Source: Apostichopus japonicus
Taxonomy: Eukaryota > Echinodermata > Holothuroidea > Aspidochirotida > Stichopodidae
Length of the DNA stretch: 64,000 nucleotides
NCBI RefSeq assembly: GCF_037975245.1
Contig: NC_092563.1
Coordinates: 19,610,094 to 19,674,093 of the forward strand
Direction: 5' to 3'
Position 1 is the first letter of the stretch. Each line of letters starts with the position of its first letter. Below are positions 13,001-56,500 of this stretch, piece by piece. Both the position numbers and the translations under genes were made by a program. The notes beneath the pieces are model-generated. The model saw only the letters and a list, made by a program, of their open reading frames with translations, had not been told where the DNA came from and did not search any database.

Positions 13001-14523
13001 ATTCATCCACGTTAATTGTCCTAGCAAAGTAAACAGATTTAAATTGATTGTTTCAGTATAATGTGGATACATACATGTGCATCCTATTAACTACAGAAGA
13101 TATGTATGCACTCAATTATCCCCACTTTCTCCCATCCACTGGCAATGCTCATGTTTGTGATAGATATGAGAAGGATGTATGTACATATAACTGCCACTTC
13201 ATCAATTTATGTACGTATGTGCTATGACTGCTATCTTCATATCTAAATGGCAACTTGATGAATCCACCCCAAAAAAGGGTAAATTGTTGACAACAAATTT
13301 GTCGCTTACTTCTTACTGTTCAGTCTATTATTTCTTTCCACAATGTTATGTATTGAAAAAGACAAATGTAACTGCTCAAGATAAGGGCAAGAGAAATGAC
13401 AGCGAAAGTGACATAAATTTGCTTCTCTTTGGAATCACAAGTTTACCCAACATTGACCAGACCTTACAAATGTTGGTAGACCGTGCAGTATATATGATGT
13501 AGTACATGTGTGCTTTTACTTAAAGGGTGTGAAGACTCGCGCAAACAGAAATGTCTTATGTCGGTAATTTGACCTAGTTTCGAATGAGGTGTAACAGAAG
13601 TGTTAAACACCACCATCGATCCCAGAAGATACACACACAGCTTGCTACCGTCGGTAATTAGACACTAGTGTACAGTCAGTACATACAGCTGAGGTCAATA
13701 CCCACAGCACAGTGTATAAACGATACAGCGATGGACATCTCAGGTCCAGCTAAAGATAACAATTAAGGTATCACGTTTCATTACTGTCTGCATTTTGTTG
13801 CAACACGAACAAAACGTCACTTGCAAGCAACAGAAAGTTAACTTTTTCAGATGGCCACACGCGGTTTCGGGGCGAGTCTTCAATGCCTTTAATGGTCATA
13901 TGATGCAAATTTGATATCTAGCTGGCAAAACATTTCACATTGAAGATAATTCAAGATATGGTAGCCATGTTGAAGCTTTCACACTTGGATTGCACACCAA
14001 CTAACGTCCCTTAAAATTTTTCTACAATCAAATTTCCACCCAAAACAATCTAAAACTGAAACATTTATCAAGATGATGACACTGTCTAGTCACTCTAGTG
14101 TTTAATTGACTCAACAATTATCAATTCTGTCTGTAACTTTTCACAAGTGCAGGTCTTAAAGTAAACAAGTGGTAGACTAGTACAGAATGGGAAACATTCT
14201 CTGTTAACTACAACTCTCTAGAGGGTCTATGATACATACCCTTCAAGTGTCTTCCATAGAAAGTCATAATCATTGGCCACTTTGAAGTACAGCTCATTTA
14301 TGGAAGGCTGGATACTTAGAGCAGTCTGAAACAAATGTTTGGGTATTGACGATGGTAGAAGCATGAACGGCGCAGGAGAAACCACATCGGATGAGTCAGG
14401 ATTTTCTTTTGTCCTCATCAAGAACCCATTTAAACAAGCAAGATCTTTGGCATCTTTAACTGTCTGATTCAATTTGCTTAACAGTACTGGAACTTCTACA
14501 CAACTGGGTAAAGGTGGCGACAT
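4015..14523 (-). CDS. GSS: Glutathione synthetase, complete, 10 coding exons
   Basis: Joins gamma-glutamylcysteine and glycine with ATP to make glutathione in the cytosol. Coding exons (minus strand): 14523-14240, 13020-12945, 11300-11161, 10536-10420, 9233-9069, 8092-8023, 7265-7074, 6477-6396, 5386-5194, 4138-4015. All have GT/AG borders, the phases agree at every junction, and the total is about 480 aa against 474 in human. Recognisable family blocks in order: VVSPAPFMLLPS (N-terminal), LRSDYML, QVEVNTIAASFAGLAS, ERNIFDQR, YYRTGYVPTQ, the HLAGSKKVQQELAQPG block, FTGLYSLAL, KPQLEGGGNN (glycine-rich ATP loop), NYVIRPGY, EFGFYGSFVR and the C-terminal DEGGVAVGVSSLNSPF (alanine-rich lid loop). 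The start is ATG 14523 (AAAGATGTCG). An acceptor-like TATTTCAG just upstream (14533-14532) suggests a separate 5' UTR exon that I cannot place. The introns hold three related MITEs and a SINE. Confidence 0.95.
4240..4935. repeat. Decayed ~190-bp tandem repeat in the last GSS intron
   Basis: The block 'tgtggtttaatg... gacaagcag.. aatggctaaa' recurs near 4372, 4568 and 4754 (spacing about 186-196 bp). Each copy is followed by a TGACCTTTGACC-like segment. The copies are diverged (roughly three to four units). Confidence 0.7.
8469..8828 (+). mobile_element. TTAA-flanked MITE, copy 1 (GSS intron between exons 5 and 6)
   Basis: About 360 bp. It begins TTAAAGGCATTGAAGACTCG and ends GCGCGAGTCTTCACACCCTTTAA, so the ends are inverted repeats of about 20 bp, and a TTAA occurs at each end. 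It is non-coding and homologous over its length to 9951-10318 and to the inverted copy at 13520-13892. TTAA targets are typical of the piggyBac and Kolobok superfamilies. The AGG start after TTAA fits Kolobok better than the CCY start of piggyBac, but the superfamily is not certain. Confidence 0.85.
9275..9500 (-). mobile_element. tRNA-derived SINE
   Basis: On the minus strand the head reads TTAGCTCACTCAGTGG (A-box-like), then about 30 nt later CCCGGCTCGAGTCACTCC (B-box-like). This is the layout of a tRNA gene 5' half with internal RNA polymerase III promoter boxes. A tRNA-unrelated body runs to about 9275 and contains GTCCATGATTATGAATTG and a terminal GCAGGAGGATCTAAAAT. It lies in the GSS intron between exons 4 and 5. 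The ends are approximate and I did not identify a target duplication. Confidence 0.7.
9951..10318 (+). mobile_element. TTAA-flanked MITE, copy 2 (GSS intron between exons 4 and 5)
   Basis: About 368 bp, same family and orientation as 8469-8828. It starts TTAAAGGTATTGAAGACTCG and ends GCGCGAGTCTTCACAACCTTTAA. Internal blocks such as GAGATGTCCATCGCTG and ACACTTCTGTTACACCTCAT are shared by all three copies. Confidence 0.85.
13520..13892 (-). mobile_element. TTAA-flanked MITE, copy 3, inverted (GSS intron 1)
   Basis: About 373 bp. It reads as the reverse complement of the other two copies: it begins TTAAAGGGTGTGAAGACTCGC and ends GGCGAGTCTTCAATGCCTTTAA. Confidence 0.85.
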
Positions 14524-14829
14524 CTTTGCTGCTGAAATAGTGTAAGCTGAAATATAAAAACTATGATGTAAGATATGACATTGGACATGTAACACAAACA
14601 ATAAGTATTTGCTAAGCACAATTTAGCCTTTTTTTGTAAGGTGTGAGCTTGATGAGCAATATTGTGACAATATTGCGGTCCTTGCATTAATTGCAATTCA
14701 ACTGTGCATTCCTCGCAAGATCAATACTGTACATGTAGAGTACCCTACCCTGAATATTATACGATTTTCAGGTTGATTTTGATTAGGTATATACCTGCGC
14801 TATTAGAGCATACAATTTACGTTGACCTA

Positions 14830-15405
14830 ATTAGCCATTAAGCAGTCTCACCCTCACATATATTAACATTTCTTTTAATTTCTCCTTTAAAAACTCAAAA
14901 TACCTTAACCATATTTCCAAAATTAATCTTTTTAACACTACAATCACTGCCTCTCCCAATGCAACCTTCGGTATCACTTTTGATAGTAAATTATCCTTTA
15001 ACCTACACTGTAATAGAACTGCAGGACGCTGCTGGTCCCACCTTAAATACATCCAAATCCTCTCACACAAGTATAATTTCCCTCCGAAAACCACTATCCA
15101 AATCTACAAATCCAAAGTAAAACCAATTCTCAGTTACGGAAGCATCTCCTTGCCTACCATTTGAAATTCCAATAAACAAATTTTAAATAGAATCCACACC
15201 ACAGCTTATCGACTTGCCCTAAAAATCCCTTCATATATAGCTACCTCTCACATTCTCCTTGCAGGAAACACAAAATCTTTATTCACCCTACTCGTAGAAT
15301 TTAACACCAAACTATATAAAAACAACCTAGAGAATGATCCATTGATCGAAAAACGCCTATTGAAATACAATGTATTATGTAGCATTAACTTTCTACCCAA
15401 ATAAC
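14830..15405 (+). pseudogene. Non-LTR retrotransposon reverse transcriptase, C-terminal fragment
   Basis: One forward frame reads FGITFDSKLSFNLHC, then RTAGRCWSHLKYI, then YKSKVKPILSYGS, then after an in-frame TGA continues NRIHTTAYRLALKIPS and later LYKNNLENDPLIEKRL. The order 'GI.FD..LSF..H', 'KP.LSYG' and 'I....R..L..P' is typical of the thumb and post-RT region of jockey/CR1-like non-LTR elements. The copy lacks the catalytic palm, has at least one stop and is not functional. It lies just upstream of the GSS start, possibly within a GSS 5' UTR intron. Confidence 0.7.
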
Positions 15406-16314
15406 CAAAACCTTTCTGTATTCAAAACTGTAACTTAAAACCTCATCCCAATAGAAAATCCTTTTTCTAAGTGGGTCTAGCCCCCCCTCCCCCCCCCCCT
15501 CCGACTCCAGGTGTACTTATACATTAAGAACAAATCAAAAATTCCGACAAAGAATCAACCACTTACGACCCAATTAATAGAAACGGCTCTGTCTCCAAAT
15601 CCCATTTAATTAGAAATTCCTCCCCTTTAGTAATCCCTACCTAATTGGCTCTTCAGTTCCGACCTCTTGTTTATTTATGGCTTCTACACAATGTTATTGC
15701 ATAATAGTTAATACTTCACTTCTCAGCATCTCCCTGACTGAATAATAGACAACTTTCCCTAGAAAAAAAAAAGGTGTCTATTCTACAAAACTATAATATT
15801 ATCCCCCGTACGACCTCTTGCGAGGTCGAGCAGGGGTAAACTCCTTTTTTCGTTGTTGATATATTAACATACGTACAGTACTTGACGCCAGTGGGGCCAA
15901 CTGGCATTAGGCTAGGCAATGAATGGTAGATATTGTTACTACAATCCTAATGCTACAATCACAACTCCCGCGGTGATTAGCGTGAAACGTGTTACATAGG
16001 CCTAACTAATGTATGAGAATACTTACTGTGCGTAACACGGTCTAGGATGAATCGTGGAATTACTCTTTTCAAATTGTGGGTGCTGTTGTTAATCAGAAGA
16101 CAGTTTTCTCAGTATAACATGCTAAACCGTGCGATGTAGAATGATAACACAGTGGTTATCTAAACACTGTGTGTAGTGAGGAGTGTGAGTACAAAATGCA
16201 CAGTCATTACTGGTGCTTTCCACTTTTCGAAGTAAACACGTTAATCTGTCAGCTGAGTAGTCGTCTGTAAGTGTGTCGTCTGCTGTTGATCTTGTGTATG
16301 AACGCCGTTACAAA
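15406..16314. other. Gene-free stretch between the RT fragment and the transposon
   Basis: No supportable gene. It contains a C-rich run near 15480-15500, a short A-run at 15762-15771 that might be a retroposon tail, and a small inverted motif GACCTCTTGCGAGGTC near 15809-15824. GSS promoter elements may lie here or be separated by the transposon, but I cannot identify them. Confidence 0.5.
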
Positions 16315-16322
16315 GTCTGACC
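16315..16322 (+). repeat. Left target-site duplication of the 12-kb transposon
   Basis: GTCTGACC directly abuts the left terminal inverted repeat, and the same octamer follows the right end at 28364-28371. It matches the reverse complement of the Drosophila P-element preferred target (GGCCAGAC, from memory) at 7 of 8 bases. One base is shared with the inverted repeat, so the cut could be placed one base either way. Confidence 0.85.
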
Positions 16323-16354
16323 AGGGAGTTGTTATGGAATGGAGTTCTGTCTTC
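16321..16354 (+). repeat. Left terminal inverted repeat of the transposon
   Basis: 34 bp beginning CCAGGGAGTTGTTATGG and ending TTCTGTCTTC. It is the exact reverse complement of 28331-28364. Confidence 0.92.
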
Positions 16355-16359
16355 AGTGA

Positions 16360-19090
16360 TTTTATCACCATGTCCTTAAAACCACCTCAGGATACACTAC
16401 GCAGCCTATGTTAACCCTATGACTAAACACGAAGGTCAGGCCTCCCCAGAGAGCGATCAGATTTCCTTTGAACCATATGAAGTTGCCGACTCAGGAGACT
16501 TGTTCAAAACGCCCTCTATCGTTTGACCGTATCTAGCCGATTACTTCATGGGGCTTTCCCTGATACTTACCGCATGCGCAGTAGTTATTCTCTTTGGTGT
16601 CATGGCCGAAACTTATGTGCAGTTGAAGAAGAAACAGTTACCTTTTTTTTCGTGAAAACCCGAAATTCGGCCGATTTTTTTTCGGTAAGTTATGCCAAAT
16701 TATTCTTCATTGTTTTGTCGTAAATCGTACGGAATATTGGGAAATTTAGGCTAGAAAGAAGGGACTTTTTAGTCAATTTGCGCATCGTTTCGGCGATTTT
16801 TTACTATAGTGTAGTGTTCATTAATCTCTTAGCTCACCAAAATTGGATCGCAAAGTTGTGGCACTCACTGCCAATTTGGAGAAAAAATGGATAGTTTGAT
16901 GTCAAAATATTCATTTCGACGTCCGTTACCATGGTAATTAAACGATTGGTAAAATTTTGGCGCCATTTGTTGGCAATAACGGCGAAACCAGTATAGACTA
17001 TTTAGTGTAGGAATCGGTTTCACGATGCAATTATAAACTGTGGTATTACTAGTGGTAATGTGGTAAGCCCATGACTAACGTTAGTTGTCAATTTTAAGTT
17101 TTAACAACATTTCATTCGTTGTTTTTGGAAATTTAGTGATTTTACCGGGTATTATAACCCGGAAAGTTTCAATCGAGAGAACGGGTTACTGCTTGGTTCC
17201 CAAGTCAAGACTTAGGCTAAGTGGAAACGTAGCAAGGTCTATCCTTATACTAGATTTATACAAATAGCTCTAGGCCTAACCTACATAAAATTAGCCAAAT
17301 AAATAGCCTACTGTATTCTGAATACTTAAGCTTAGGCCTGCAGATAGTCCCTATAATATTTTGGTCTATTAGTCGTGCAAGTGAGCAATGAGAGTGATTC
17401 TACTTCCCCATTACACTTCACTACGGAACTACTTGAGATTGTATAATTGAGGATTAGCTTCAGTGTGTGATTTGGAGAGAGTAGATGTATTTTGCTGCTC
17501 TCTCTCCTTTGCATGGTTTACCATATGTTATGATTGTTTGCCCAATGCTTCTGAATGATATAATATATATTTCTCAGGCTACAGGTAATGACTTGTCAAA
17601 ATTTTGTAGATTATTTTCACTATGTCCACTCCAAATAAATTTTATTCACCACAGTTTCAAAATATTTACAGACCTGCAAATGGCACCTTTCTTTGTATGT
17701 AGCAGCATTTCATCCTTCAACAAATCCAAATAAATGTTGATGCATGTGTACATAGCAAGAACATAAAGCTTTCCTATACACTAGGCAAAAAGAATATTTC
17801 ATACCAAACAAATAAGTAAACTTATTTGTTCTTGGTGATTTTAGCAGACTTAAGGAATAAGTCTAAATCCAGCCTGTATGCAATTTATCATAAAAAAATT
17901 TGATCTATCTTTAGTGTTCCTCAGGCACTTTATCATGGGAACTGTCATGTTGAAATGATACATATTTGCAGGTTACGTTGGCCTTCTTACCAGGTGTCCA
18001 CAGGGCAAATGATGGGATGCATGAAATCATGGGATGGAAAAATTAGGGGGTGTGCTATACACCTAGGATTACCAATAACCTCTGATTTGCAGAGAAACAC
18101 ACAGTGTATGAACTACTGCATGAAATAAAAAGGTAAACTTTAAATGAGTTTGGAGTCCTGTCCACTCATACATTGTTGTTTTCTTGAGAAATGTATCCTT
18201 CGAAAACCCAACCTACATTGTTTGCAATACCCACGAAACTTAGCTACTGAAACCTCATATCAATAGTCTATAAAAAATATAATATATGCTTAATCCCTTT
18301 CATGCCCAAGTATAAAACTGTTAACTCTGTTATAACTTAATGAGTTGAGTTTATTAATTGAATTGGCTGGAATTTGTTCAAATATTACCTCAATAAGATA
18401 CAGATTTTGTAATTATACCAGCTTGGCTAAGTTTTAGTAACATCATAAATACTGTAAGTCATTCTTAATTTGAATATTAAGATGGGTTCATGTAAGCATT
18501 CAACCAACCAAAACAATATTGAAGCAGGGAGTTGTTCCATCACAACTCCTTGCTTGAAGTTGTAACCCAATTTGAGTTTTAAAAAAAAATATATATCTGT
18601 ATAAGTTTGAGCTCGTAAATCCTAGTATAGTCTTAGAAAAGGTACTGACTTCCATGCCTCCATATTCAGGAAGTCACTCAGTAAGAAGCTCTGTGTGAAG
18701 TTCAAATGCATTGTCCAGTTGAAGGAAACAGCCTTCTGTTTATCAAAAAATCAATAGTTTTTTTATCAAGAATCAACAGCTTAAGTATTTTTGAGTTTGA
18801 AGCAGGATGTTGTGGTAAGAAGATGCTGCTATTCAAGCTCAACAATGGTCCTAATTGCATTGTACATAGGGCAGGTATTGTATTTTGTGCAGAAGTTGTT
18901 AACACTGGCCAAATAATGTGGTCAAAGATGTTAAACAGGATCCAGGCATTGCAAGCAGCAATTTCTTCTCACAATGCTTCAGTCACTATAAAAAACAGCT
19001 GCATGAGTGGAATGGATACACATTGCAAGTGGGTCTGTTATTATCAACATTGGAATTGCTTTAAAGATGTGTGTTTTGTGAAATTTTGTT
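16360..19090 (+). other. 5' region of the transposon, possible leader exon
   Basis: No confident coding exon. A well-placed ATG at 16601 (GTCATGGCC) opens a short frame (MAETYVQLKKKQLPFF...). It stops in a T8 run and is followed at 16685 by a consensus donor, CG|GTAAGT. This looks like a first exon, either untranslated or carrying a one-base slip in the T-run. From there to 19090 is AT-rich, intron-like DNA with chance open frames only. Confidence 0.4.
16465..16490 (+). repeat. Left subterminal inverted repeat of the transposon
   Basis: CCTTTGAAC, 2-3 variable bases, then ATGAAGTTGCCGAC. It is matched in inverted orientation at 28300-28324. P elements carry subterminal inverted repeats that act in transposition, so this is a plausible transposase-binding or enhancer site. 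Confidence 0.75.
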
Positions 19091-22000
19091 ATGGCATTTC
19101 ATATGTGTATTTTGAAATCCTTGTGCAGATTATGTGGAGCAAAGCAAAGGGAAGGTTCTACATATTTTCAGAAAGAAATTTATGGGAAGGATATTTTAAA
19201 ATTTATGCAAGTGGACATTAATCAAGACATTCCAGGTGTCCATCCTAGTTCCATTTGTGACACTTGTCGAAGGAAACTATCACGCTGTAAGACTGCATCC
19301 AGAAAGTCAAAGAAAAACGAACAGTGTACTTCTAATGTACAGCTTCATAAATTCTCCGAACATTCAGAGGACAATTGCGCCATTTGTACAACCAATCAAT
19401 TGGACAAGAAAATACTTTTAGATTTTTGTAGAGAGACAGGATTTCTGTCATGGATGTCGAAAGATGGCAAAGTGATTGCAGTAGTAATGCATGACCTAGG
19501 AGAAGTAGTTTTGAAGAGAATTATAATTGGTGATAACTCAGTCACTGCCTTCATTCTTGGAAAAGTTGTTAACTTATCCCACAGTAGTCCATTTAAAGCC
19601 ATCACTGAAATTTGGGATTCAGAAATCTGTGTGGGAAACCATGATTTTGACACTTTAGCTGAGGCTTACCGTGAAGAAGGATTGAAAGGAACTGTTGGTC
19701 AGACTGTGGCTCAGGTAGAAACTCTTCGAACAGGGGACCAGTTAGAAGGCAAACTAACAATACGCCATAATAAATGCCATCTGATAATTTCAAATGAGGA
19801 TGTACAGCAGTCCAACCGAGCCATCAGTAAGTGCTGTGCTGTTTGTAAATTCTATAGGGCAAATTTACATCAAAAGCTGATAATACATCAGCAAAGAGGA
19901 CAAAAGAAGAAAACCAAAAACATTCTCTTGTCAAAACCAGAACTTATCAACAAAGTCAGTCATTTACAGACAGAGATCCAACTATCAAGGAACAGACAAG
20001 AAAGGTTGAAGAGCACCATTAGGGATCTGGTTGAAAAGGAAAGTGTGACTATTGATTCTGAAGAACTCCTGAAAGTTATCAAATGCAATGAAAAGGAATT
20101 GGAGTCTATTTTACCAGCTAACACACATTGTGCTTTACTTTGGGAGCAGCAAAAAAAGGCATTGCAAAGCAAATCCTCCAAAGGTATGAGATGGCATCCA
20201 GCAATAATCAAGTGGGCAATTGCATTGCATTCAAAATCATCATCTGCATATGACATCCTTAGAGATTCTGGATTTCTCATTCTCCCTCATCCAAGTACTC
20301 TTCATATGTACACACATTTTACACCGCCATCATCTGGACTTAATGTTGGTTTGCTACAGAGGTTTTTCGACAGTTTGAAGCTGAGCTCTCTTGAACCTCA
20401 TCAAAAGCTTGTAAACTTGATTTTTGATGAAATGAAAATTAAGGCAGGACTTGTGTTTTCCAAAACAAATGGCAAGTTAGTGGGATTTATTGATGTTGGA
20501 GATGTCAGTAAAGACATGGAACGTTTTGAAGCCAGATGCACTGAATCAAAATCTGAAATCCCAAATGTGGCCTCGCATGTGCTTCTCTTCATGGTTAGAG
20601 GCTTAACTTCAAGCATTAAGTTTCCGGTGGCTTTTTTTTTCACTAACAGTGCACCAGGCCATCAGCTGTATGAGATGGCAATGAATTGCATTAAAGCCCT
20701 CAAGCTGCTAGGACTTACAGTTATCTGTTTGACTTCAGATGGTGCAAGCTGCAACAGAAAACTGTATGAGATTTTGTCAGGAAGCTCCTCTTCACCACTT
20801 ACTCCTCATTACAAGACGAAAAATGTTTATGAAGAGAACCAGTACATATATTTTAATTCCGACGCACCACATTTATTAAAGACACTTCGGAACAATTTTG
20901 AAAATTCCAATTGGAACCGGAAGACAAGAAATCTTGTGGTAAATGACTGTTTTTATTGTCAAGTTTAATAAAATAAAAAAATTGAAGTAGGGTTATTCAG
21001 TGAAAGTTATATGTGTATGTGTATACATTTTGTATAAGGAGAAATGGTATAAGAATGTAAACTACTTTATTGGTCAAAATTTCTATTTCTATAACCACCT
21101 TGGAGGAATTTACCTCATTGGGACATTCAGTCATCTTGCATGTTTAACAAGAATGTCTGATAAGAACTGGAAGAGTAAAGACCTCCAGTAAAGTACTTTT
21201 TATTTGCCTCTCAGTAAATATTTACTGTTCTTTTCTTTCTTTTTACCCCTCATGCTCAGTATAATGGAAAGCCAATCCAATGGATCCACCTTCTGCAGCT
21301 TCAGGAATGGGATAAAGGGTGCAAAAGACAAACGCCTGGTTTGGTCCTCCTCCCGAAGCTCTCATATGAGCACCTCCATTTGAACCCGGGTTTGCGAATG
21401 AAGGTCAGCTTAGCTGCTCAGGTATGTTTTATATTATACCTTCAGTTATCAGTAAAAACAGTACTTGTTGAATACTTTGTTTCTTGAAGAGTCCCTTCAG
21501 TCTCTATGGTGGGACCGTCAATAACACTACTGTAGAATTAGTGTTGCAATTTTTTACGGAGAAGAAAAAAACTGTATACAAATGTGGATATGTCATCAGT
21601 ATTCAGTACCACACTACAGGGATTATGCAATTTATTACAGTGGATAACAGTAGAAGGCAAGGTTGTGCACCTTACAGTGTTTTACTGTTGTAACACTTGT
21701 GCTGTAATGTAATGGTTACCAAAGAAATTCTCAGTAAAGGACACTAGAGAAGGCAGGAATTTGTCATGAATGATTACCTTCTGATTTAATTAGCTGCAAC
21801 AATTGTTAGTGGTTTGTGATTTTGCAAAGAAATGACAACCAAGAAACTAGTCTAACATGAAACTAAAGAAGTTCCTGACATGCAGTATGGATATATTTAA
21901 AAACCTACTACAATATTTGATGACAAAATGTTACTTTTGTTAAGAATTGATTTCAGCACAAATTTGGTTACTTTGTCCATTGCAGGTGATGTCCAAGACA

Positions 22001-23395
22001 GTGGCCAATGCTCTACAATTGAAGGACAGTTTAGTGTATTCATCGACCATCAAATTTATTTTGATGGTCAACAAGTTTTTTGACTGCCTTAATGTTGGCT
22101 CTACATCACTGTGGCTGAAAAAGAAGAATACAGACATCAAACCATACACATCTGTTGATGATGAAAGACTTGTGGTCAGTACTTAAAACATTCAATCTCT
22201 CATAGTTTACTTCACATGTGCATAATATGTGTGATAAAGACACTAATTAGTGTGTCAAAGTAAAAATGTCTTATTGCAAAGGTAATACAGCATACACCTA
22301 TATTGTCCTACTTGCAATTTACATAACCAATTGTAAAGTACTGTAAAGCACACGTATGAATGGTATTCAAAGAGAAAAAAAATATGCTTGTATCTCTAAA
22401 AAACCTTCTTCTTAAGCTTTAAAATGGAGAATAACAAACTACACTTTTACCACCACAATGTCTCATGAATTTTTCTTTTGTTTTCAAACAGTGGCTTACA
22501 GAAGAATTTTTGGGTTTCTTGAAAGAGTGGACTGAAGAAGGTGAGCACCTTCCAGGGTTAACACCGAAGCAAAAGCAGGCATTGCATCTTAGTGTACCCA
22601 CATTGGCTGGATGTCACATAGCAGGTATGTTTTGTCTTATTTATTGTTTCTTTATGTTAATCGTTACATATTGTGAAATATTCTTTAATGACTTTATGAC
22701 TATTTGTAATTCAATTCTAACATAAATCTTTGCAATCAAACAACTGCTGTCACAACTTCTTGATGTAAAAAAGACACAAATGAAAAATATGTGAAATTGT
22801 TTCAGTACAGTAGTAGGGATAAACTCATGTACAAAATATATATCCATGTTTGAAGTCCAAATATGACATGTGTGTCTATAGAATTGTTGTTGAGAATGGA
22901 GAAGTGACCTTAACATATATGCGTACCTACATCAAAACTCTTCAAATGAGGCAGACTTGTCAAGCTTCCACCCTAATCCTCATTTTTTTATCAGAGGTGC
23001 CAGAAATTATGTTTATTTGCTCTTTAAGATCCTACATAGATTTAATAAATCTTGAAAGACTATGTAATGTCTATGAATATTCACTTCAATTTGTTTTCTC
23101 TGTCCTTTTTACAGTTCACTCTTTCACTGAGATTACAAAGCTTCTTCTGGCCATGGATGGAGTCAACTTCTTCCTCAGTGACAAACTTAACCAGGATCCT
23201 GTGGAAGAATTTTTTTCCAAACAACGGTCAGCTGGTGGTCATCATGACAATCCATCAGCTGAACAATTTGGCCATCACTTGATGAAAAATATCGCTGCAG
23301 GTAGTCATGCTGCAGCATCCAGGAGAGCCAATGTTCGCCGTGAGCAGCCCTCAAAGGATATAAGTGATGAGCCCTTGCCCAAAAAAAAGCGCTAA
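19091..23395 (+). CDS. P-superfamily transposase with RAG1-like N-terminal zinc region
   Basis: Cut-and-paste transposase. Exons: 19091-20938, 21260-21421, 21986-22174, 22492-22624, 23115-23395, with GT/AG borders and matching phases, giving about 870 aa. N-terminus: C12-x2-C15, H51-P-x3-C56-x2-C59, then H91-x4-C96-x2-C99. This is the spacing and wording of the RAG1 non-core zinc region (IHPxxFCxxC in RAG1, VHPSSICDTC here). ZAD domains also share the CRLCG...ICxxC theme. Next come a CxxC...H...H motif (C249-H266) and a coiled coil at about 285-330. The catalytic domain has FDEMKIK (D446), TSDGASCNRK (D550), DAPHLLKTLRNN (D591) and LNQDPVEEFF (E808), as in P element/THAP9. The C-terminus is a PLPKKKR nuclear signal. 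ATG 19091 has G at -3 and an in-frame stop just upstream. An acceptor-like GTGCAG at 19123-19128 leaves an upstream leader exon possible. Confidence 0.88.
20939..21259 (+). promoter_or_regulatory. Transposase intron with in-frame stop and AATAAA signals
   Basis: The donor GTAAAT at 20939 continues in frame for nine residues to TAA 20966-20968. AATAAA hexamers at 20967-20972 and 20972-20977 overlap or follow that stop. Retention or early polyadenylation would give a 625-aa protein that keeps the zinc region, coiled coil and first two Asp motifs but lacks the Glu motif and nuclear signal. The Drosophila P element makes a repressor by intron retention, so a similar control is plausible but unproven. 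Confidence 0.5.
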
Positions 23396-23520
23396 CTTTG
23401 GTATAATGAATTGGGTTCACAGGGGGAGGGGGGTGAGGGCATGATAAGCAGCGAGAGAAAAAAATATATACATTTTCATTTTGAGGTGAGAAATTCATTG
23501 AAAGTTATATACATTTGCAA

Positions 23521-24515
23521 TTTTTTGCATTGAGTATCAATAATTCAATACATCAATATTTAAGATCCACATTGTAACTGATATTGTAAGTGAACCTTCT
23601 TGTGTAGTATACTTCATTACATTTGAAATGCCTGTTAAACCCATGTTATGTGAAAGGGTTAACTGTAGCCAAGCGTTGCTATGGGACTAAGTATTTTTGT
23701 TATGACTACTGTCAATCATATTTTTTTTTTTGGGGGGGGGGGGCTCTGATAAGTTCCATTATTTTATGATTTTATTTATTTACTGCTTGATGGCACTAGA
23801 CTTAAATATGTTCTAATGCACTTTCTTTGAAAAAAAAATGTCCAGCTGTTATGATCTAATGCATTGAAATCAGGTGAATGGCATGACTTCCACCTAGTCT
23901 GTCAATTTTTTGCATTGAGTATCAATAATTCAATACATCAATATTTAAGATCCAAATTGTAACTGATATTGTAAGTGAACCTTCTTGTGTAGTATACTTC
24001 ATTACATTTGAAATGCCTGTTAAACCCATGTTATGTGAAAGGGTTAACTGTAGCCAAGCGTTGCTATGGGACTAAGTATTTTTGTTATGACTACTGTCAA
24101 TCATATTTTTTTTTGGGGGGGGGGGCTCTGATAAGTTCCATTATTTTATGATTTTATTTATTTACTGCTTGATGGCACTAGACTTAAATATGTTCTAATG
24201 CACTTTCTTTGAAAAAAAAATGTCCAGCTGTTATGATCTAATGCATTGAAATCAGGTGAATGGCATGACTTCCACCTAGTCTGTCAATTTTTTGCATTGA
24301 GTATCAATAATTCAATACATCAATATTTAAGATCCAAATTGTAACTGATATTGTAAGTGAACCTTCTTGTGAAGTATACTTCATTACATTTGAAATGCCT
24401 ATTAATCCCATGAAGGGTAACCGTAACAAAGCGTTGCTATAGGACTAAGTATTTTTTGTTATGACTACTGCCGATCATAATTGGGGTAGAGGGGGGGGGG
24501 TCTCTGATATATTTG
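23521..24515 (+). repeat. ~385-bp tandem repeat between the convergent transposon genes
   Basis: The block starting TTTTTTGCATTGAGTATCAA occurs at 23521, 23906 and 24288 (periods 385 and 382 bp). Copies 1 and 2 are nearly identical, including a T-run/G-run junction before CTCTGATAAGTTCC. Copy 3 is more diverged and incomplete. It lies in the shared 3' region of the two genes. Confidence 0.9.
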
Positions 24516-25040
24516 TTGCTATATTTTCATTGTGTGTTAATAGTTAAAAGTGTTAATAGTGAATGCATCTAACAGTGATACCAATGCATGCTCCATGCTG
24601 GCTTTGAACTAGAGCATTAAGTGGTTAAATGAAAAGAAAGTACACCAAACAAGAATGTGATTTTGTTGTCAAGTCTTCATTGTTAACTTAAAACTTGTAC
24701 AAAAACTTTACAAAGACGGAAATAAATTAAAAGAATATATTTACATTATATGGAATAGATGAACTATGGGTTAGTTATCCCCAAGGTTTGTTAACCTAAG
24801 ACCCTGCCTCCCCCCACCCCCTCTTGTCCCTTTTTATCAGACCTTGACAATTAAAACCACATACTCAATCTTAAAAAGAGGGGTAAACCTTCAAAATAGA
24901 GTGTTAAATTATCATTAGGGGTTTAACTCTTTGTAGTGTAAGTTTCAGCTTTACAAACACAACTTGATGTAAAATGTTAAGCATTATGCACCCATCCTGC
25001 CTCCCTTCATGCTCTAGGGCTATTCATATCAATGGTATCT

Positions 25041-28000
25041 TCACATCCCTAAACTTTTTCTAAGTCCTTTGTCAGATTTTTTTGATATTTTGTCTGTTAT
25101 TTGCTTATTTATATTTATATATACTTTCATAAAGGATTCACATCTCATTTTGATAAAACATTTAATAACCTCAGAACGAAGCAGAGAACTAGCTTCCTGA
25201 GAAAGAATGTCACAAACAGCACTCCATGTAGACAACAGTTGCTGATTACCTTCCATTTTTTTAATTAATAAATCTTGCAGGTTAACATCTTGTAAGCTCA
25301 CAATATTTTTAGTTTGTACAGTTGTCCTTACAATTTCTTCCATACATTTGAAGAAAATAAATACACTATCATTGACTAGAAATAAGCCGCCTCTATTCTG
25401 TATTTCAATCCACTCATTTGAATAAGCAAGAAATGAGTCTGCAGCTGGGCTTTCATCCTGACACCACTTAGATAAGATTTTGACATATTGAGCAGCAACC
25501 TCATTGCTTTGCATTTTATTGTATTTTTTTATTAATTTATATGGTACATAACCAGCACAGTACCGCAATGCCTGGTCCTCTGTCTGAGTCATTGCTTCAG
25601 GGGTCACGTCTAAGGTTGTTGCTGGCATGTCACTTTCCAGCAAGGTTGCTAAGAGGGAGGAAAACATCTTTTCCAGGGCATGCTGTAGAAAGAATACTTC
25701 TTCTTCTGCTTCCCTTTCAATATCCACCTCATTCAGTACTTTCTGCCATCTTCTTAATGTTTTATCCATAGACCTATACTTGTGGAAATCATGCCACATT
25801 TCGCTCTTCACTTTATCAGAAAATGTGGTCCCTCTTATGTTCTTGGTTATGGACCATAACTGTTCTACTGTTTCTGCAGCAAACTTGCCAAATTTTTCAT
25901 CTTTTGTATGAGGCATCACTCTTCTTGCTAATTGTACGACACTTGATGTTAGTGGGGTCTTCAGTTTGAAGAGGTCGTCTTCAAAAATGTTATTGATGGC
26001 AGCTTCAAAAAAATCCATCGCAAGCACTGAAGCATCAGCCTTCCTAAAGGTCTTTGCTGGATACTGCATTCCTGTAAATGAAAGAGTTATGACAGTTTTC
26101 AAGGAACAGGCTATTTTTAAAGAAACACCAGTCATAAATTACATGTCTTGTAACTGGTGAGGATTATTTTCCATCCCTTTAAAAAAAAATGATTCTGCAG
26201 CATGTTTCAACTTTGAAAGAGAATTCATATTCACGAGAATCCATTTCTTAGTCCTTGGGTTCTAAGTAGAACTTCCTCCTTATGGGTCGGGTGATATTAG
26301 CTAAAATATCAATAATCAAGATATATGCCTCATTATAGCAACAATTGTAGAGAACAATGATTCACTTAAAATTGAGCTTCTAATTTCATAGTAGAATCAA
26401 AGAAATTACATCACTCTATATTCCGTGCTGGACGTTGTGACCTATGGATATTGCTTCAAATAATTTCTTAACGTATGATAATAAAAATGATGTAAATAAT
26501 AAAACAAATATTCTTCAAAGGAAGTTACATTCCACCCCCAGATATTTTGTTAACAGGTGAGTGTCCAAATGCTACCTTGTTACCTCTCCATACGCATCCA
26601 CCAAAGAATATCAATATTCCTTCAAATCATTCTTAAAAGTTACTTCCTGCTTCTGAACTCCACCAATATGTAAAGTTTGGAAACTTCAACAAAGAAATTT
26701 AAACTTACTTAAGTTGGTGGTAGGGCCAGATGTGGCTTCTTTTGAGGGTCCACTCTCTATTCCAGTCCTCTCTGATGTTTGAGAAGAAGTTTCTACAAGA
26801 AAAATTAAATGAAAGATAAATAGATTTTTAAAGAGTCCATTTTCCAACTGAATGTAACATTGATGAAAATTTCTCATTGATATATAACTAGGAAACCTGT
26901 ACCTCATGTATACAGTATGTTGGCTTAGAAAACCTTTTTTGAAGTTCAATGAATACCACACTAAGGCTTAACTGTCAATAACCATGATGTAGAGCAGATG
27001 TATAGATAAAGTAACACAGTAAAATAAATAGGTTTCACTACTTGGAGGTGAGATAAGTATTGTGCTATTTTTGGGATCGTGTAATGCTAAGGTTAGGATG
27101 AAAAGCAGTTATTTTTGACAGTGAGACTAGCATCCTTATTGCTCTAGCAATAGGAGATCCTGAGACTGTGGAACTTGGATCGGTCCCTAGTCTACATTGT
27201 CATATTGACAACTTCAGTTAGGAGCTTAACTTTTGTTATATATAGTAATCGTTTGTTATTGTTACACCTTCAAATATGACTAAATTTTAACAGCGCAAGG
27301 ACAAAGCGGGCAACCAAAACTATTTGCAGCAGAGCACGGTTAAAATACAAGCCTACCACGTACACAATTAACTGTCTTGTAACATATGTTTTCTACAGAT
27401 TTTTCGATGGCACAGCAGGCCTATCCAATATGGAAACCATATTTCCAATTCCAAGTGAACTGACAGGGTCTAGGCCTCAGTGAATAAAAAGGCCACGCAC
27501 ACACTTTAAGAGTAGGCTAGTCTATAACAATGCATAGCCTAACTTCGGATTTCGCTAAATTTAGGAACAACAGGACTAAAGAGTAACATTTCATCCTACG
27601 CCAAACAACATACTGTATTGTGGTGTATAGGCCTAGCCTAGTACAGTAGATTTTATTTAGTAACATTAACAATGAATGAGGCAAGGAAATAGGCAGAATG
27701 GGACACTTGTGCCTAGGATAAGCCTAGGATATAAAGGCGAATGATTCATGCTGGATCTTATCAATAGCAGTTACAAATACTTTGCCAATGCCTGGTTTCT
27801 ACTCGTACCTTTGCAAGAGGGACAAATCCACTCCTCCAGCGTTTTCTGTGCGCAGTCCACAAGCCTAGCCTTCAGCATACATGTTGTGTGAAACCATATA
27901 GTTTGGCAAGTTTCACGGTTGCACTTAAACAAATTTTCAGTCGACGGAAGTTTACACTTGCAAACCGAAAATACTGTCTCGCTATTGGTGTCATCCTTGG

Positions 28001-28079
28001 TCTCAGACAACGTCTCAAACTCTTCCCAATCGAAGAATTCCGTTAAATCTAATGATTCTAGTGTTTCGTTGGCGTCCAT
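25041..28079 (-). CDS. PHD-finger protein encoded by the transposon, 3 exons
   Basis: Exons (minus strand): 28079-27809, 26792-26709, 26071-25041. All junctions are phase 1 with GT/AG borders, giving about 461 aa. Residues 1-40 are acidic (DLTEFFDWEEFETL). Residues 40-90 form a C4HC3 PHD finger: VCKCK, FKCNRETC, IWFHTTC, then EEWICPSCK. Exon 2 is a Ser/Thr/Gly-rich linker. Exon 3 holds an alpha-helical domain with DDLFKLKTPLT, ALRYCAGYVPYKLIKKY and WIEIQNRGGLFLVND, which I do not recognise, and a basic C-terminus. The start is ATG 28079 (AAAATGG); no ATG lies upstream in the same frame. The gene faces the transposase. PHD fingers usually read histone H3 tails (K4 state), so a chromatin-targeting partner role is inferred. 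The identity of the C-terminal domain is unknown. Confidence 0.82.
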
Positions 28080-28176
28080 TTTGGTAAGTAAAGATGTATA
28101 GTACTGTGTCTGTATAGGAGTTTCCACAACAAATCCCTGGCTGTACGTAAGCGTGTGTATATGAGGCTTTTGTTTA

Positions 28177-28188
28177 CAACTCCCTGGT
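28177..28188 (-). repeat. Extra copy of the terminal motif inside the right end
   Basis: ACAACTCCCTGG repeats the outermost bases of the right inverted repeat about 175 bp inside it, and a weaker AATCCCTGG lies near 28132. Repeated terminal motifs are often transposase-binding sites. Confidence 0.55.
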
Positions 28189-28299
28189 TACCCGAAGTGG
28201 CTTTACCGAGGTCACGAACGTTGCCGAGTTATGCAAACTACGCCTGCAGGCGATGTCCACCTGCTGTGCTGCAGTGACGGGTTTTATTTGTATGGCCTT

Positions 28300-28324
28300 G
28301 TCGGCAACTTCATCAGTTCAAAGG
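28300..28324 (-). repeat. Right subterminal inverted repeat of the transposon
   Basis: Reverse complement of the CCTTTGAAC..ATGAAGTTGCCGAC motif at 16465-16490. Confidence 0.75.
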
Positions 28325-28330
28325 AGGTTG

Positions 28331-28364
28331 GAAGACAGAACTCCATTCCATAACAACTCCCTGG
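28331..28364 (-). repeat. Right terminal inverted repeat of the transposon
   Basis: 34 bp ending AACAACTCCCTGG, the exact reverse complement of 16321-16354. Confidence 0.92.
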
Positions 28365-28371
28365 TCTGACC
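28364..28371 (+). repeat. Right target-site duplication of the 12-kb transposon
   Basis: GTCTGACC follows the right inverted repeat and repeats 16315-16322 exactly. Confidence 0.85.
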
Positions 28372-28616
28372 GGTTTGCGGATTGTACTACTGCAGCAAGC
28401 AACCGAACAAAACCATCGATTTATACAAGGGTGATATCAGGATGGTGTACGAATGATTGAACCGAGAACTTTGAATCCGTAACGCTGTGACAATGATCAT
28501 TACAAAATAAGAAACGGTATATAAATTTGGGAAAATGGCAAAAAGACAATTACGAAAAACATATACAAGTGTGTATATGTTATAGACCGTCAAACACCCC
28601 ATCTGTCCATGTTATA

Positions 28617-35678: not shown

Positions 35679-36896
35679 TCATACATCGTTATCTCGTCTG
35701 ATGTCCAAATAGTTGCTCACATCCATTACAGATGCACGAGCCTCTCGGCCAATCACGATTCCTTCTACATCCTCCTCCGTGTGAAGGGTGCAATCAAGTA
35801 AATTTGGCTTCATTGCTTTAATTTTTTCAATGACATCTTCTTGCAGACCACAGTGGCAATGTAATGCCTTCAGATGGACAGCATGTTCCACAAGATTCAG
35901 CAAAGCTTCCTCTAGGGCTTTTGAACCTTTTGTTGTTATGGTCAACTTTTCCAATGACTGGCTGAAGTACGAGTCCACAAGAGCCACCTCTCTGTGGAGT
36001 TCACTCATTGTCCTCAGGCTGAGTTCGACGAGAGGTATCTGATGGTGTAAGATGCTGTGAATCAGGAGCCGCTCTATGGTATGATCGAAATTAACGATCA
36101 CTCGCAACTTAGGGAGGGCCTTGGTGATCTTGTCCCACGATTCGATGGACACATGCTTGTGGAACTTGTCCTCTCTCTGACAGCTAAAAGAAAGGACCTC
36201 TAGAGGGCTCCTGTCCTTCTCTGTGAAGGCTTCCATCAGTTTGTCGCACATGGACGAGTAAAAACAGGACAACCGTCTGAGTTTGCGACACTTCTCCACC
36301 AGGTTGAATAGGGCCACGGCAGACACTTGACAAGATAGCGAAGTATTCTGAATGTTCAACACTTCCAAATTTGGATGGTTTGATGATAGCAGATTAAATA
36401 AGATGTCAGTGTACGAAATATTGAGACCACTTAAATCGACATCTACCAATGTACCAGTTAGGATTATCTTAGGATTAGGCGGACCAAATAATTCGGCGAC
36501 ACTGCTTAGAATGTCATTACCTTGAAAGAAGAGAGGATTCTCCGTTGTGAAGTAAATACCTATCCTCTCTAACTTCCTTTCTTCATGTCTTGCCAAACCT
36601 GTTATGACCCTGCACAGGTTTTCACAATTGAAGGGTCCTTGAGGGTCTACGAATACAAAGACTGACTTGAGATGGCCTCCGTGCTTCTCTAAACATTTCA
36701 GCTGTTTGGCATCGGCTCTGGAATGAAAGTTGAAAGAAAAGTGGCGCCATAGTACTGCTTTATCAAACACCTCTGCCCAATGCTGACAAGAGAGAGAAGC
36801 AGAGTAACGATCTCCAACATCAAGCATAGAGAATATGAGCAGAATTACGTGGTCGGGCAAATTCTCCCATTTGGCAATTCCATGTGCATCTGTCAT
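35679..36896 (-). CDS. FBXL8-like: FBXL8-like F-box protein, paralogue A
   Basis: Predicted substrate adaptor of an SCF (SKP1-CUL1-F-box) ubiquitin ligase, 405 aa in one coding exon. F-box at about 10-55: WENLPDHVILLIFSMLDVGD, then RYSASLSCQHWAEVF and LWRHFSFNF. The rest is a leucine-rich-repeat-like array. It matches human FBXL8 (from memory) in ENPLFFQGNDILSSVAELFG, VDLSGLNISYTD, NTSLSCQVSAVAL, LVEKCRKLRRL, EAFTEKDRSPLEVLSFSC and LHCHCGLQEDVIE. The start is ATG 36896. A CTGTTTTCAAAG acceptor lies about 30 nt upstream, so a 5' UTR intron is likely, as in paralogue B. It lies head to head with paralogue B, about 4.3 kb away. The substrate is unknown. Confidence 0.88.
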   Translation of the reverse strand: MTDAHGIAKWENLPDHVILLIFSMLDVGDRYSASLSCQHWAEVFDKAVLWRHFSFNFHSRADAKQLKCLEKHGGHLKSVFVFVDPQGPFNCENLCRVITGLARHEERKLERIGIYFTTENPLFFQGNDILSSVAELFGPPNPKIILTGTLVDVDLSGLNISYTDILFNLLSSNHPNLEVLNIQNTSLSCQVSAVALFNLVEKCRKLRRLSCFYSSMCDKLMEAFTEKDRSPLEVLSFSCQREDKFHKHVSIESWDKITKALPKLRVIVNFDHTIERLLIHSILHHQIPLVELSLRTMSELHREVALVDSYFSQSLEKLTITTKGSKALEEALLNLVEHAVHLKALHCHCGLQEDVIEKIKAMKPNLLDCTLHTEEDVEGIVIGREARASVMDVSNYLDIRRDNDV

Positions 36897-39800
36897 GGTG
36901 AAGTCCAGCTGAACGTCACAGTAATCTTTGAAAACAGACAACAGGATTACATCTCAAACCTGATAAAACAAAAAAAAAGAGCAAAAAATATGATGGGCCG
37001 TGGATGAAGTTAGAAAAGCGGCTTCATATAGGGAAACATTTATCTTTACAATGTTGAACAGACAAGAAACTCAATTTTCTTATCTACTATGCTTGCAGAT
37101 CATGAATGAAAACATGATCCTCCTTGTTTTCAATAGAACCATATTGTAGAGAGAAACTTCAAAGTAAAGATAAATTGCATACATGTTAGAAATTGCACAC
37201 ACTGACAATGTACAAAGTTCTCTAAAAAAAGATGCAGAAAGTGTGACATGTTTTACTTTGAAAGATCTTAGAACAACTTCTAAGTTTGAACTTGAAAACA
37301 ATAGATTGCAGATAATAGGACATTCTGGAGATGCATGTGATCTGGTACTGACTAAATGACTTGAAATTTGATGAAGATTTACAGCACTTGGCTGCATGCT
37401 GACATTAACAGCATGACTTATATCTTATCATTACTTTTCTCTACATATGCACTTGGACAGAAACTTTTAAACTGATTTCTTACTTCTAAATCGCAGAAGA
37501 TAATTTGTTTGCAAAAGAAACCAAGGTTTCAGATCAACACTTATATACCAACAAATTTCTGCACAAGAAGAAACAAGTCACAAGCAGCTTGAACAATCTC
37601 AAAAGTGAATAATTAAGTAACACTATGAAAAGCAGCTGGGTATGGAGACTTCACCGTTCATGGGTACGTACTGACAGAGGTCAGATGCAAGTGTACCAAT
37701 TCTTTGTTCCATTTCAGTTGACAATGTTTGTGTTTTTGTTGAAAATATATGGAAAGTGCAGCTTAAGTGAGATGGGATGTGTGCATGTGATGAAAGATTT
37801 ACTGTAGATTGGCTTCTCTATTACTGGCATGCACAGACTCAACATTTTCATTATTTCGAGAAATTTCAATGTGTTCTGAAAATAGGCACAACATCACACA
37901 AATTATCTGATCAAAAACCGGACTCCTAATGGGCTATATTAATCATTTATCACATAGTAGGTCTACCAACATGCAGTATAAATATGTGATCTGCATTCAG
38001 TAATTATATTGGTGCTGTAAATTTCTAATCAGCCACAGCATGACAACTTTATCAGTAACAGTATACTAGTTTATATATTGCAATGTAATCAGGGTAGATA
38101 CTGAAATATAATTATGAAATATGACAGAAAATATCCTCTTGCAATTAGAAAAATGTCCATACACAATTGTTATTGCCTTATTCCGGTGGCATTGCATGCC
38201 CTAGTGAAAATAGGGCTACTGTAGCAGTAACATTACCGATACACTCACGACACATCATGTATATGAACAGCCTAACAAAGTAATAGAAAGTCAAGATAGC
38301 GGTGCAGTACTTGGCACTGAGCTATAGCCTTGGCTAACATTTATAGTTATTCCTTAGTACTACTAGTACTAGTAGTAGGTATTACTTATTTAGTAAGTTT
38401 CTGTAGCTAGCCTAACTAAGGCTTAGTCCTACTTCAAGTTCAATTGAATTTACTTTTACGTGCAACAACCACAACACTGTTTTCGTTAGCTGGCGAAGAG
38501 GCATGGGCTTTCGGAAATGAGCTTTATAAATACCTAAGCTAGTCATTAATGCAACGTTGATGATCCTTTGGACTCATCTTTCATGACCGGTACCGCTGCG
38601 ACATGACTCATCTAACCTGTTAATTCAATTCACCGGTGTATAACCTATTTTCGGAAGATCAGCAACACTCGTGTCTATGTAAAGTAGTTATGGATGTCTC
38701 AATTTGTGTCAAGCGTTTGTAACTCTAAATATATGTTTTAGATTCTGGGGCTAGATTATACTAAGAAAGTTAACCTAGCCCATCGTATTATTGCTATTTA
38801 AATTAACAGTAATTTCACACATTGGATCAAAAGGCTTGTGATAATTTTGCATATTAACTTGATCCAACCAAACTGTATTATGGTCTGTAATTACTACTGT
38901 ATTGTTTGTAGACACGCCCATCTGTTCAAAACCGGAAGAGAATTTGAAGAATGTAAACAGTGCAAGGCTCTACAGTTGTACACGGTATACCTTACATTCG
39001 TACACATCCAACAACTACCCGTCGTTCTGACTTTTTCGTAATTTGTTGGGTTTGTATCGACGCATCTTCAAGGTAATGTGAACGTGTAAGTTTAAAATTG
39101 TGTCCGTTGTACATTTCGGATCGTCTGGAAAAAGTATAACACTTTGAACGATAAAGTCTTCTCGAATATCGGTCAGCCGAACTATGTAGGAGTTACGGTT
39201 AGCAGTGTCGCACATTTGATACCTTGCACACTATCGCTGTGAATGGTTGTACATCAAGCTGCCTGTCGTTAGTAGGCCTATATTACAACTATGTAGTATG
39301 TTGCAGAACCATACCCCACCCCACCCCCACCCCAGCGTTTGCCACACAGTTATTCAGATGTAAAAGAAAATGCAATAGGACCTAAGCCTGTTAGTCTCAC
39401 CGACGCAGTTGATACTTCAGCAAAATTGACATTTGAACTTCAGATGTAGGCCTACAGTAATTCAGTTGCATAGCCAAAGGGTGCAGGGGGGGGGGGAAGG
39501 GGGCGACCACTAGAAATTTCAAAATAGAAAATTCCTAATAAGTGCCATTTCCAGCGGTCTGGGAGGCATTTTCGGCCAAAATTTTCTTGTACGCTTCGCG
39601 GCAATCCATCATCTGCAATGCTCAGAATGTGGTCAGGCGCATAGCAAGGAATTTGCCAAGGGAGGGGCAAAGCCTCTAGGCAAACTATCTAAGCGTAGCG
39701 CCACCATGGATATCAGATGGATATCAGATTGGCCAATGTGCTGGCAATTAGCATAAGTTTTAATATATGATGTTATCCAACCAGCTTTACGTATCATCCA

Positions 39801-52640: not shown

Positions 52641-53445
52641 CCGTGCAGTCTTTATCAATGAATTTGCTTGCGCAGTCTTCCTCTTTTATCTTTTATCATC
52701 AACGTCCTGCAACCTCATCCACCTTCATCCGACTCAATCATCTTTCATTACTGGACTCCCTTTGTTCTTCTTCAGTCTTCATCCATCTTTTATCATCGTC
52801 GTCCTGCAACCTCATCCATGTTCATCCCACTCTATCATCCTTCACTCGTGGACTCCCCTTGTTCTTCTTCTGGTGACATCGTCAAGCATCTTAATCCACA
52901 TCCTTCCGTCTGCGTCCACCTTCCAAACCCATCATCCTTCTTCTTTTGCATCTGAAAAACAAAACTAGAAAAACAGTTAGAACATATCAAATACATAACC
53001 CACCACTAACCCTGTGACCCCCTCTTCTTCTGGTGGCATCATCCAGCATCTTAATCCACCTCCTTCTGCATCCACCTTCCACAACCATCATCCTTCTACT
53101 GCATCTGACACAACAAGGCTAGAAAAACAGTTAGAACATATCAAATACATAACCCAGCCACTAACTCTGGGACCCCCCCTCCTCTTATTATGGTGGCATC
53201 GTCCAACATCTTAATCCACCTCCTTGCGTCTGCGTCCACCTTCCACACCCACCATCCTTCTTCTGCATCTGAAAAACAAGGCTAGAAAAACAGTTAGAAC
53301 ATATCAAATACATAACCCACCCACTAACCCTGGGACCCACCCCTCCTCTTCTTCTGGTGGCATCGTCCAGCATTTTATTCCACCTCCTTACGTCTGCGTC
53401 CACCTTCCACACCCACCATCCTTCTTCTTCTGCATCTAAAACAAC

Positions 53446-56400: not shown

Positions 56401-56500
56401 TAGAACATATCAAATACATAACCCACCCACTACCGACCCCCCTCCTCTTCTGGTGGCATCGTCCTGCGTATTTATCCGTCTTCTTCTGCATCTGAAACAA
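53446..56500 (+). repeat. Higher-order repeat block 1 (~1.1 kb, nine monomers)
   Basis: Matching variant patterns recur with an offset of 1099 bp (about 53718 to 54817 to 55916), including the unusual short unit with ACTACCGACCCCCCTCC at about 54719, 55819 and 56428. Within it a two-monomer unit of 246 bp is itself repeated (54121 and 54367; 55220 and 55466). Confidence 0.85.

Follow-up and report, generated by a model that had tools for sequence, protein, structure and literature searches.

P elements have 31-bp terminal inverted repeats (TIRs), 11-bp subterminal repeats, and 8-bp target site duplications, and their transposase binding sites are described as unequally spaced at the two ends (PMC7776569). 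The duplications of Galileo, also of the P superfamily, are reported to be mostly 7 bp long and of the GTANTAC type within a palindrome (PMC4168063). We treat an N-terminal THAP domain as usual, not as defining, for this superfamily. Another zinc domain lies in the central non-core region of RAG1 (residues 87-217 in the mouse; RAG1_imp_bd in Pfam; the "Chapa" domain of Kapitonov and Koonin). A report on this domain describes binding of double-stranded DNA and of two zinc ions, as well as a contribution to localization in the nucleus; C110/113, C175/178, and C210/213 within it were mutated as potential zinc ligands (PMC3124419). According to a 2015 paper, the Chapa domain is carried by Chapaev, whose transposase is distantly related to that of Transib, and is found in no known transposons outside the Transib/Chapaev group (PMC4411706). 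The RAG1 N terminus has previously been derived either from a Transib/Chapaev ancestor (PMC4411706) or from N-RAG-TP of Aplysia, in which a RAG1 N-terminus-like protein lies within a mobile element and which is described as consisting entirely of that sequence (PMC8355894). RAGL transposons are described as having two convergent genes, RAG1L and RAG2L, one with a zinc module and the other with a PHD finger (PMC7204232); in descriptions of amphioxus ProtoRAG, the PHD is absent. Transib and RAG1/2 are described as producing 5-bp duplications.

Here, we present an analysis of a 64-kb window of contig NC_092563.1 of Apostichopus japonicus, in which a P-type transposase is fused to a RAG1-type zinc module. 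The element shares with Drosophila P, THAP9, and Galileo the catalytic core, a helix-turn-helix (HTH), the GTP-binding insertion, TIRs of ~31 bp, subterminal repeats, and a duplication of 7 to 8 bp; unlike them, it has a RAG1-type zinc module instead of THAP, and at 12 kb, with a convergent PHD-finger gene, it differs from the 2.9-kb Drosophila P element. With the RAG1 non-core domain, the module shares three zinc motifs in the same order, the upstream His, and the D-x4-HP spacing; however, the stretch between motifs 1 and 2 is shorter, and neither a RING/ZDD nor a Transib-type core follows. The two convergent genes resemble the RAGL layout, but the core is of the P and not the Transib type, the PHD finger of the partner is N-terminal with no Kelch detected, and the duplication is 7 bp long. 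Chapaev and N-RAG-TP were compared by description. ZAD (zf-AD) has the first two CxxC motifs in common with the module, whereas its match is weaker and ends before the third. If the module is the Chapa domain, as its match to RAG1 indicates, then the P elements described here would be a counterexample to the restriction stated in the 2015 paper.

The transposase gene and its P-type core

The motif-bearing open reading frame (19082-20968, plus strand) contains the first of five exons of a splice model in which every border is GT-AG and the product of 870 aa has no internal stops (Table 1). The A. japonicus NCBI protein P0001 is identical to this model at 825 of 832 residues, in one unbroken block (residues 39-870) that spans all four exon junctions; a second, P0002, is identical at 679 of 685 residues and lacks residues 365-549. 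An earlier sequence-only reading had described a P-type transposase with a RAG1-like N-terminal zinc region; it was limited to the open reading frame, and the TIR-bounded element and the second gene are absent from it. We found the zinc motifs where it had placed them (C12-x2-C15, H51-P52-x3-C56-x2-C59, and H91-x4-C96-x2-C99), and the catalytic motifs FDEMK, SDGASCNR, and DAPHLLKTLRN are present at residues 445, 549, and 591. Its fourth catalytic motif, LNQDPVEEFF, is also present; however, it lies in exon 5, beyond the interval to which it had been assigned (19091-20938), with NQDPVEE starting at residue 803. Based on the alignment with P and on general knowledge, the acids of FDEMK, SDGA, and NQDPVEE are presumably the catalytic ones.

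Pfam searches with the 870-aa protein gave TNP-like_RNaseH_N (3.9e-29), GBD (3.2e-14), and RNaseH_C (2.6e-7); the three families (PF21787, PF21788, and PF21789) exceed their cut-offs and together correspond to a split RNase H with a GTP-binding insertion domain. The Tnp_P_element HTH (PF12017) was matched with an E value of 4e-5 and 24.4 bits against a cut-off of 23. A profile of 37 proteins (exon 1 of the window and 36 relatives) matched the Drosophila P transposase 6p5a in the PDB at an E value of 4.5e-18. Neither the window protein nor the 37 aligned proteins matched THAP (PF05485; Pfam, E up to 0.1, complete list of 20 families) or the RAG1 core (PF12940; Pfam). THAP was also absent from eight P proteins that are free of the module, while the distant P0083 has it.

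Downstream of the zinc module, a second conserved Cys/His-rich region covers window positions 19420-19860. R225, C229, C249, and C252 are invariant in the 37 rows, C180 and H226 are nearly invariant, and the consensus of module-free relatives shows a similar pattern; for this region, the PDB search gave nothing better than an E value of 0.45. The P alignment profile found no relative in viral contigs or in genome contigs, and NCBIfam gave no match for the four proteins tested.

Table 1. Positions of the features of the A. japonicus element, numbered within the window
Feature	Position	Strand	Basis or remark
Target site duplication GTCTGAC, 7 bp, left copy	16315..16321		Repeat scan
Left TIR, 33 bp	16322..16354	+	33/33 identical to right TIR
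Left subterminal inverted repeat	16465..16490	+	14-bp core ATGAAGTTGCCGAC at 16477-16490
Transposase exon 1	19091..20938	+	Zinc module, second Cys/His-rich region, HTH, RNase H domain part one; followed by GT donor
Zinc module, RAG1 central non-core/Chapa-type (aa 1-105)	19091..19405	+	Pfam, PDB profile, shuffle control, ligand alignment
Transposase exon 2, inside GTP-binding insertion domain	21260..21421	+	
Transposase exon 3	21986..22174	+	
Transposase exon 4	22492..22624	+	
Transposase exon 5, LNQDPVEEFF (RNaseH_C) and stop	23115..23395	+	
Tandem repeat, 382-bp unit, 2.6 copies	23518..24509		Between the convergent genes
Second gene exon 3, no Pfam match	25041..26071	-	GT-AG model, no transcript
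Second gene exon 2	26709..26792	-	GT-AG model, no transcript
Second gene exon 1, PHD finger	27809..28079	-	GT-AG model, no transcript
Right subterminal inverted repeat	28300..28324	-	Core 28300-28313
Right TIR, 33 bp	28331..28363	-	33/33 identical to left TIR
Target site duplication GTCTGAC, 7 bp, right copy	28364..28370		7/7 identical

The 12-kb element and its second gene

We compared 14000-19090 with 23395-28500, looking for inverted repeats flanked on the outside by direct repeats of 7 to 9 bp. Exactly one mismatch-free pair was found, compared with a mean of 0.05 pairs in 20 shuffled-triplet controls, and it bounds an element of 12,042 bp (16322-28363) that is known from one locus. The 33-mer of the TIR occurs twice in the window and in none of 100 shuffles, and the flanking duplication, GTC-T-GAC, is a palindrome of the GTANTAC type, as in Galileo. 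The two ends also have a subterminal inverted repeat in common, composed of CCTTTGAAC and ATGAAGTTGCCGAC and lying at different distances from the TIRs. Inside the element, the opening 11-mer of the TIR (CAGGGA[G/T]TTGT) recurs at 18525, 28186, and 28139, and the copy at 18525 resembles part of a short palindrome.

The second gene is predicted to encode an open product of 461 aa, which we compared with Pfam, NCBIfam, the PDB, and viral contigs. Its N terminus is a PHD finger, based on matches of a PDB profile to BPTF (2fui, 3.3e-5) and to ING proteins (from 1e-4). The finger retains the Trp that precedes the PHD His, and a Val stands just before the first zinc Cys, where BPTF and ING have Tyr. 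For the rest of the protein, nothing was found in Pfam below an E value of 0.05, and the searches detected no recognised catalytic domain, no Kelch match, and no relative in viral contigs. The RAGL partner has Kelch repeats followed by PHD, an arrangement that the second gene does not show; an identity as RAG2 was rejected because there is no Kelch match and the PHD finger is N-terminal.

Taken with the transposase, these features lead us to propose, with a probability of roughly three in four, that 16322-28363 represents a complete cut-and-paste transposon with a RAG1-type module, which belongs to the P superfamily and is probably autonomous and of recent insertion. The strongest competing explanation is that the 12-kb TIRs mark another transposon, with the PHD gene as its own gene and the P gene carried along or nested within it. 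In its favor, the P gene begins 2.7 kb from the left TIR, while the second gene is close to the right TIR; TIR-like 11-mers lie inside the element; and at the loosest setting, the scan gave three extra pairs (13 bases, 3 mismatches; 20 shuffled controls, mean 0.7, maximum 2). However, the palindromic 7-bp duplication and the TIRs of ~31 bp are in keeping with the P superfamily, no catalytic domain was recognised in the second gene, and, of the three weak pairs, two have one end each (25155 and 25533) within exon 3 of that gene, the third pair being 16154/27011. We judged these weak pairs to be chance matches and consider it less likely that the P gene by itself is bounded by an inner TIR pair. 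We regard a foreign origin of the TIRs as improbable, although it deserves more weight than any of the other alternatives considered below.

Elsewhere in the window, open reading frames at 14835-15404, outside the element, presumably resemble the terminal part of a reverse transcriptase of the LINE type, and no reverse transcriptase match was found for them in Pfam. Two similar single-ORF F-box proteins lie in opposite orientation at 35679-36953 (minus strand) and 41104-42438 (plus strand), and 53418-63993 consists of more than 10 kb of a 123/374-bp satellite with many repetitive open reading frames of up to 278 aa. Rfam gave no match in the window.

The zinc module in relation to RAG1 and ZAD

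Residues 1-110 on their own matched RAG1_imp_bd with 32.4 bits and an E value of 9.7e-8 (curated Pfam cut-off, 23.3), whereas zf-AD reached 20.8 bits, under its cut-off of 28. In the context of the whole 870-aa protein, the RAG1_imp_bd match is 17.9 bits (E value, 0.0025) and under the curated cut-off. We also searched 33 N-terminal pieces, which include that of the window and derive from the 37 rows after removal of the partial P0037, P0041, and P0049 and of P0002, which repeats the window. At E values up to 1, RAG1_imp_bd was found in 32 of the 33 (best, 2.4e-13) and zf-AD in 29 (best, 5.6e-8). Among the 37 whole proteins, at E up to 0.1, the corresponding counts were 24 for RAG1_imp_bd, 22 for zf-AD, and 0 for THAP. 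For 31 other P proteins, RAG1_imp_bd and THAP were absent among the best 25 of 32 families, the remaining 7 having at most one member each. Against the PDB, the 33-row profile matched mouse RAG1 best (21wb, 1.8e-13), followed by RAG1 in 6oem and 9jpu (1.5e-9), and only then ZAD (7po9, 2.8e-4) and the bacterial Fin (0.0016). Mouse RAG1 scored 53.2 bits, while 2,000 shuffles in which C, H, and P were kept fixed had a mean of 10.2 and a maximum of 34.0; the ZAD piece scored 23.9 bits, and shuffles of the same type reached 24.5. Because RAG1 lies above and ZAD within the shuffle range, the relation to RAG1 exceeds the zinc ligands, which is not established for ZAD.

Conservation in the 33 rows is complete for C12, R13, C15, and C56, and high for P52 and C99 (32 each), L8, C59, and C96 (31 each), H4 and H91 (27 each), and H51 (24). 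Mouse RAG1 has the identical residue at all twelve of these positions, and the spacing H-x3-L-x3-CRxC around the upstream His is the same in the two modules. In the ZAD piece (residues 6-74 of a 98-residue chain), the His at H51 is missing, and H4 and the third motif are beyond the piece aligned. All three cysteine pairs that were mutated in mouse RAG1 are contained in the window module. The third motif is missing or incomplete in P0004 of Patiria and in P0036, and the RAG1 alignment past residue 217 resembles filler.

The sequence-only reading had left room for an insect-type ZAD as the best match with no RAG1 signal at all, in which case the likeness to RAG1 would reflect generic cysteine spacing. 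This reading can point to the 29 N termini with zf-AD, to the PDB match of ZAD, to P0014, a relative that favors ZAD (zf-AD, 24.0 bits; RAG1_imp_bd, 20.5 bits), and to P0003 and P0038, in which the precomputed domain annotation has zf-AD without RAG1_imp_bd. However, RAG1 gives the higher score for the window and the best values overall, and the zf-AD match stops at residue 77, ahead of the third motif (H91-C96-C99), so that ZAD is a weaker second match that covers the first two motifs only. Based on the Pfam scores, the PDB ranking, and the shuffle control, we rejected a ZAD-only origin of the module, which we consider quite unlikely. The comparisons confirm, at the level of sequence, that residues 1-105 are a relative of the non-core zinc domain of RAG1.

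Weak matches connect insect ZAD, the non-core domain of RAG1, and the heads of the P-type proteins with one another (mouse RAG1 piece against zf-AD, 0.0054, below the cut-off), and ZAD may be a shortened relative of the RAG1-type module. In a tree of the modules, 5 of 34 inner branches were starred and branches are long; a tree uniting the three RAG1-type modules was rejected with a p-AU of 0.027, in a test that the long branches weaken. A region search with residues 1-115 of P0039 returned only P0039 itself among 29 candidates.

Spread of the module and its possible role

Searching the profile of 37 proteins in a collection of 5.8 billion proteins led to 7,999 scored candidates and 71 matches, of which all but P0082 have P-type (TNP-like) domains in the precomputed annotation. 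The module together with a P core occurs in the echinoderms and cnidarians Apostichopus, Holothuria, Patiria, Acanthaster, Strongylocentrotus, Anneissia, Asterias, Amphiura, Clytia, Hydractinia, and Hydra, whereas the module profile did not detect it in the named mollusc matches P0022 and P0067. We scored 83 proteins with this profile, whose members score high by construction. Outside the profile, the partial N termini of P0037 and P0049 scored 43.6 and 63.7, P0041 and P0058 scored 13.6 and 17.0, and module-free rows scored 4.1 or less.

The catalytic tree has 80 rows (35 with the module, 20 with short and 6 with long module-free N termini, 16 truncated, 2 partial, and 1 with THAP). Rows with the module are spread over most of it, and module-free rows fall mainly into two inner groups; with truncated and partial rows excluded, parsimony gives 4 changes. 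Because the branch of the THAP row at the root is very long, gain and loss of the module are indistinguishable on this tree, and because many module-free rows are possibly single-exon predictions, the absence of the module from them is not proven. Relatives of the P type without a detectable module exist, arguing that the wider family does not depend on the module.

P0082, a metagenomic protein on a contig of 4,872 bases, links the module to a different core. It has a RAG1 core (PF12940, 4.2e-57; ProtoRAG 6b40, 7e-76), a weak match to RING (0.015), and the module in two tandem copies, at residues 4-92 (40.5 bits; hhalign E value, 9.6e-9) and 140-236 (42.2 bits). The second copy matched RAG1_imp_bd at 1.5e-4 and 21.9 bits, under the cut-off, and the first had no RAG1_imp_bd match in Pfam.

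The presence of introns, an intact frame, and an NCBI entry labelled as an isoform (P0002) would also be compatible with a domesticated host gene. However, identical TIRs and an identical target duplication point to recent movement, and we consider domestication very unlikely. Automatic gene models of transposons are, as a matter of general knowledge, often chimeric, but an error of gene model or assembly at the junction of module and core can be dismissed, since an intron-free exon spans both, so that splicing is not required to join the zinc region to the first two catalytic Asp, and since the same fusion recurs in 35 of the 80 catalytic-tree rows, including echinoderms and cnidarians; we therefore rejected a splice artefact, and the linkage that the sequence-only reading had made dependent on splicing holds.

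For the transposon that we propose, we infer that the zinc module anchors the transposase at the ends of the element, possibly through the subterminal repeat ATGAAGTTGCCGAC, in the way that THAP uses internal sites in the Drosophila P element. Pairing and cleavage of the ends by the P-type core, with GTP as a cofactor, would then be followed by insertion at a GTC-N-GAC palindrome, with a stagger of 7 bp. For the PHD-finger partner, our guess is that it may guide the element to chromatin or assist the transposase. In this reading, the module would take over DNA binding from THAP.

The idea of the sequence-only reading that a RAG1-type module is shared between transposon superfamilies is supported, with RAG1 as the best match in both Pfam and the PDB. 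The sequence comparisons suggest that the module was passed, in one direction or another, between unrelated transposon families. A more far-reaching scenario, which we find doubtful as a whole, is that the N-terminal domain of RAG1 is an ancient, mobile module for DNA binding which has passed among the unrelated Transib/RAG, Chapaev, and P cores, that the RAG-like two-gene layout arose by convergence or exchange, that the head of RAG1 came from or went to a P-type element, and that ZAD is a trimmed descendant. In the literature searched, which did not include Repbase and most subscription papers, we found no report of a P-type element with a RAG1 module. Of the 68 proteins of the homology search, 10 are flagged with RAG1_imp_bd (PF12560) in the precomputed annotation of public databases, so the combination of P core and module is machine-visible.

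The source of the RAG1 N terminus is among the unsettled points in how V(D)J recombination arose. With the module present on a third, unrelated transposase core, carried by echinoderms and cnidarians, its exchange between superfamilies becomes testable, and an apparently intact element permits the job of the module to be assayed outside the immune system.
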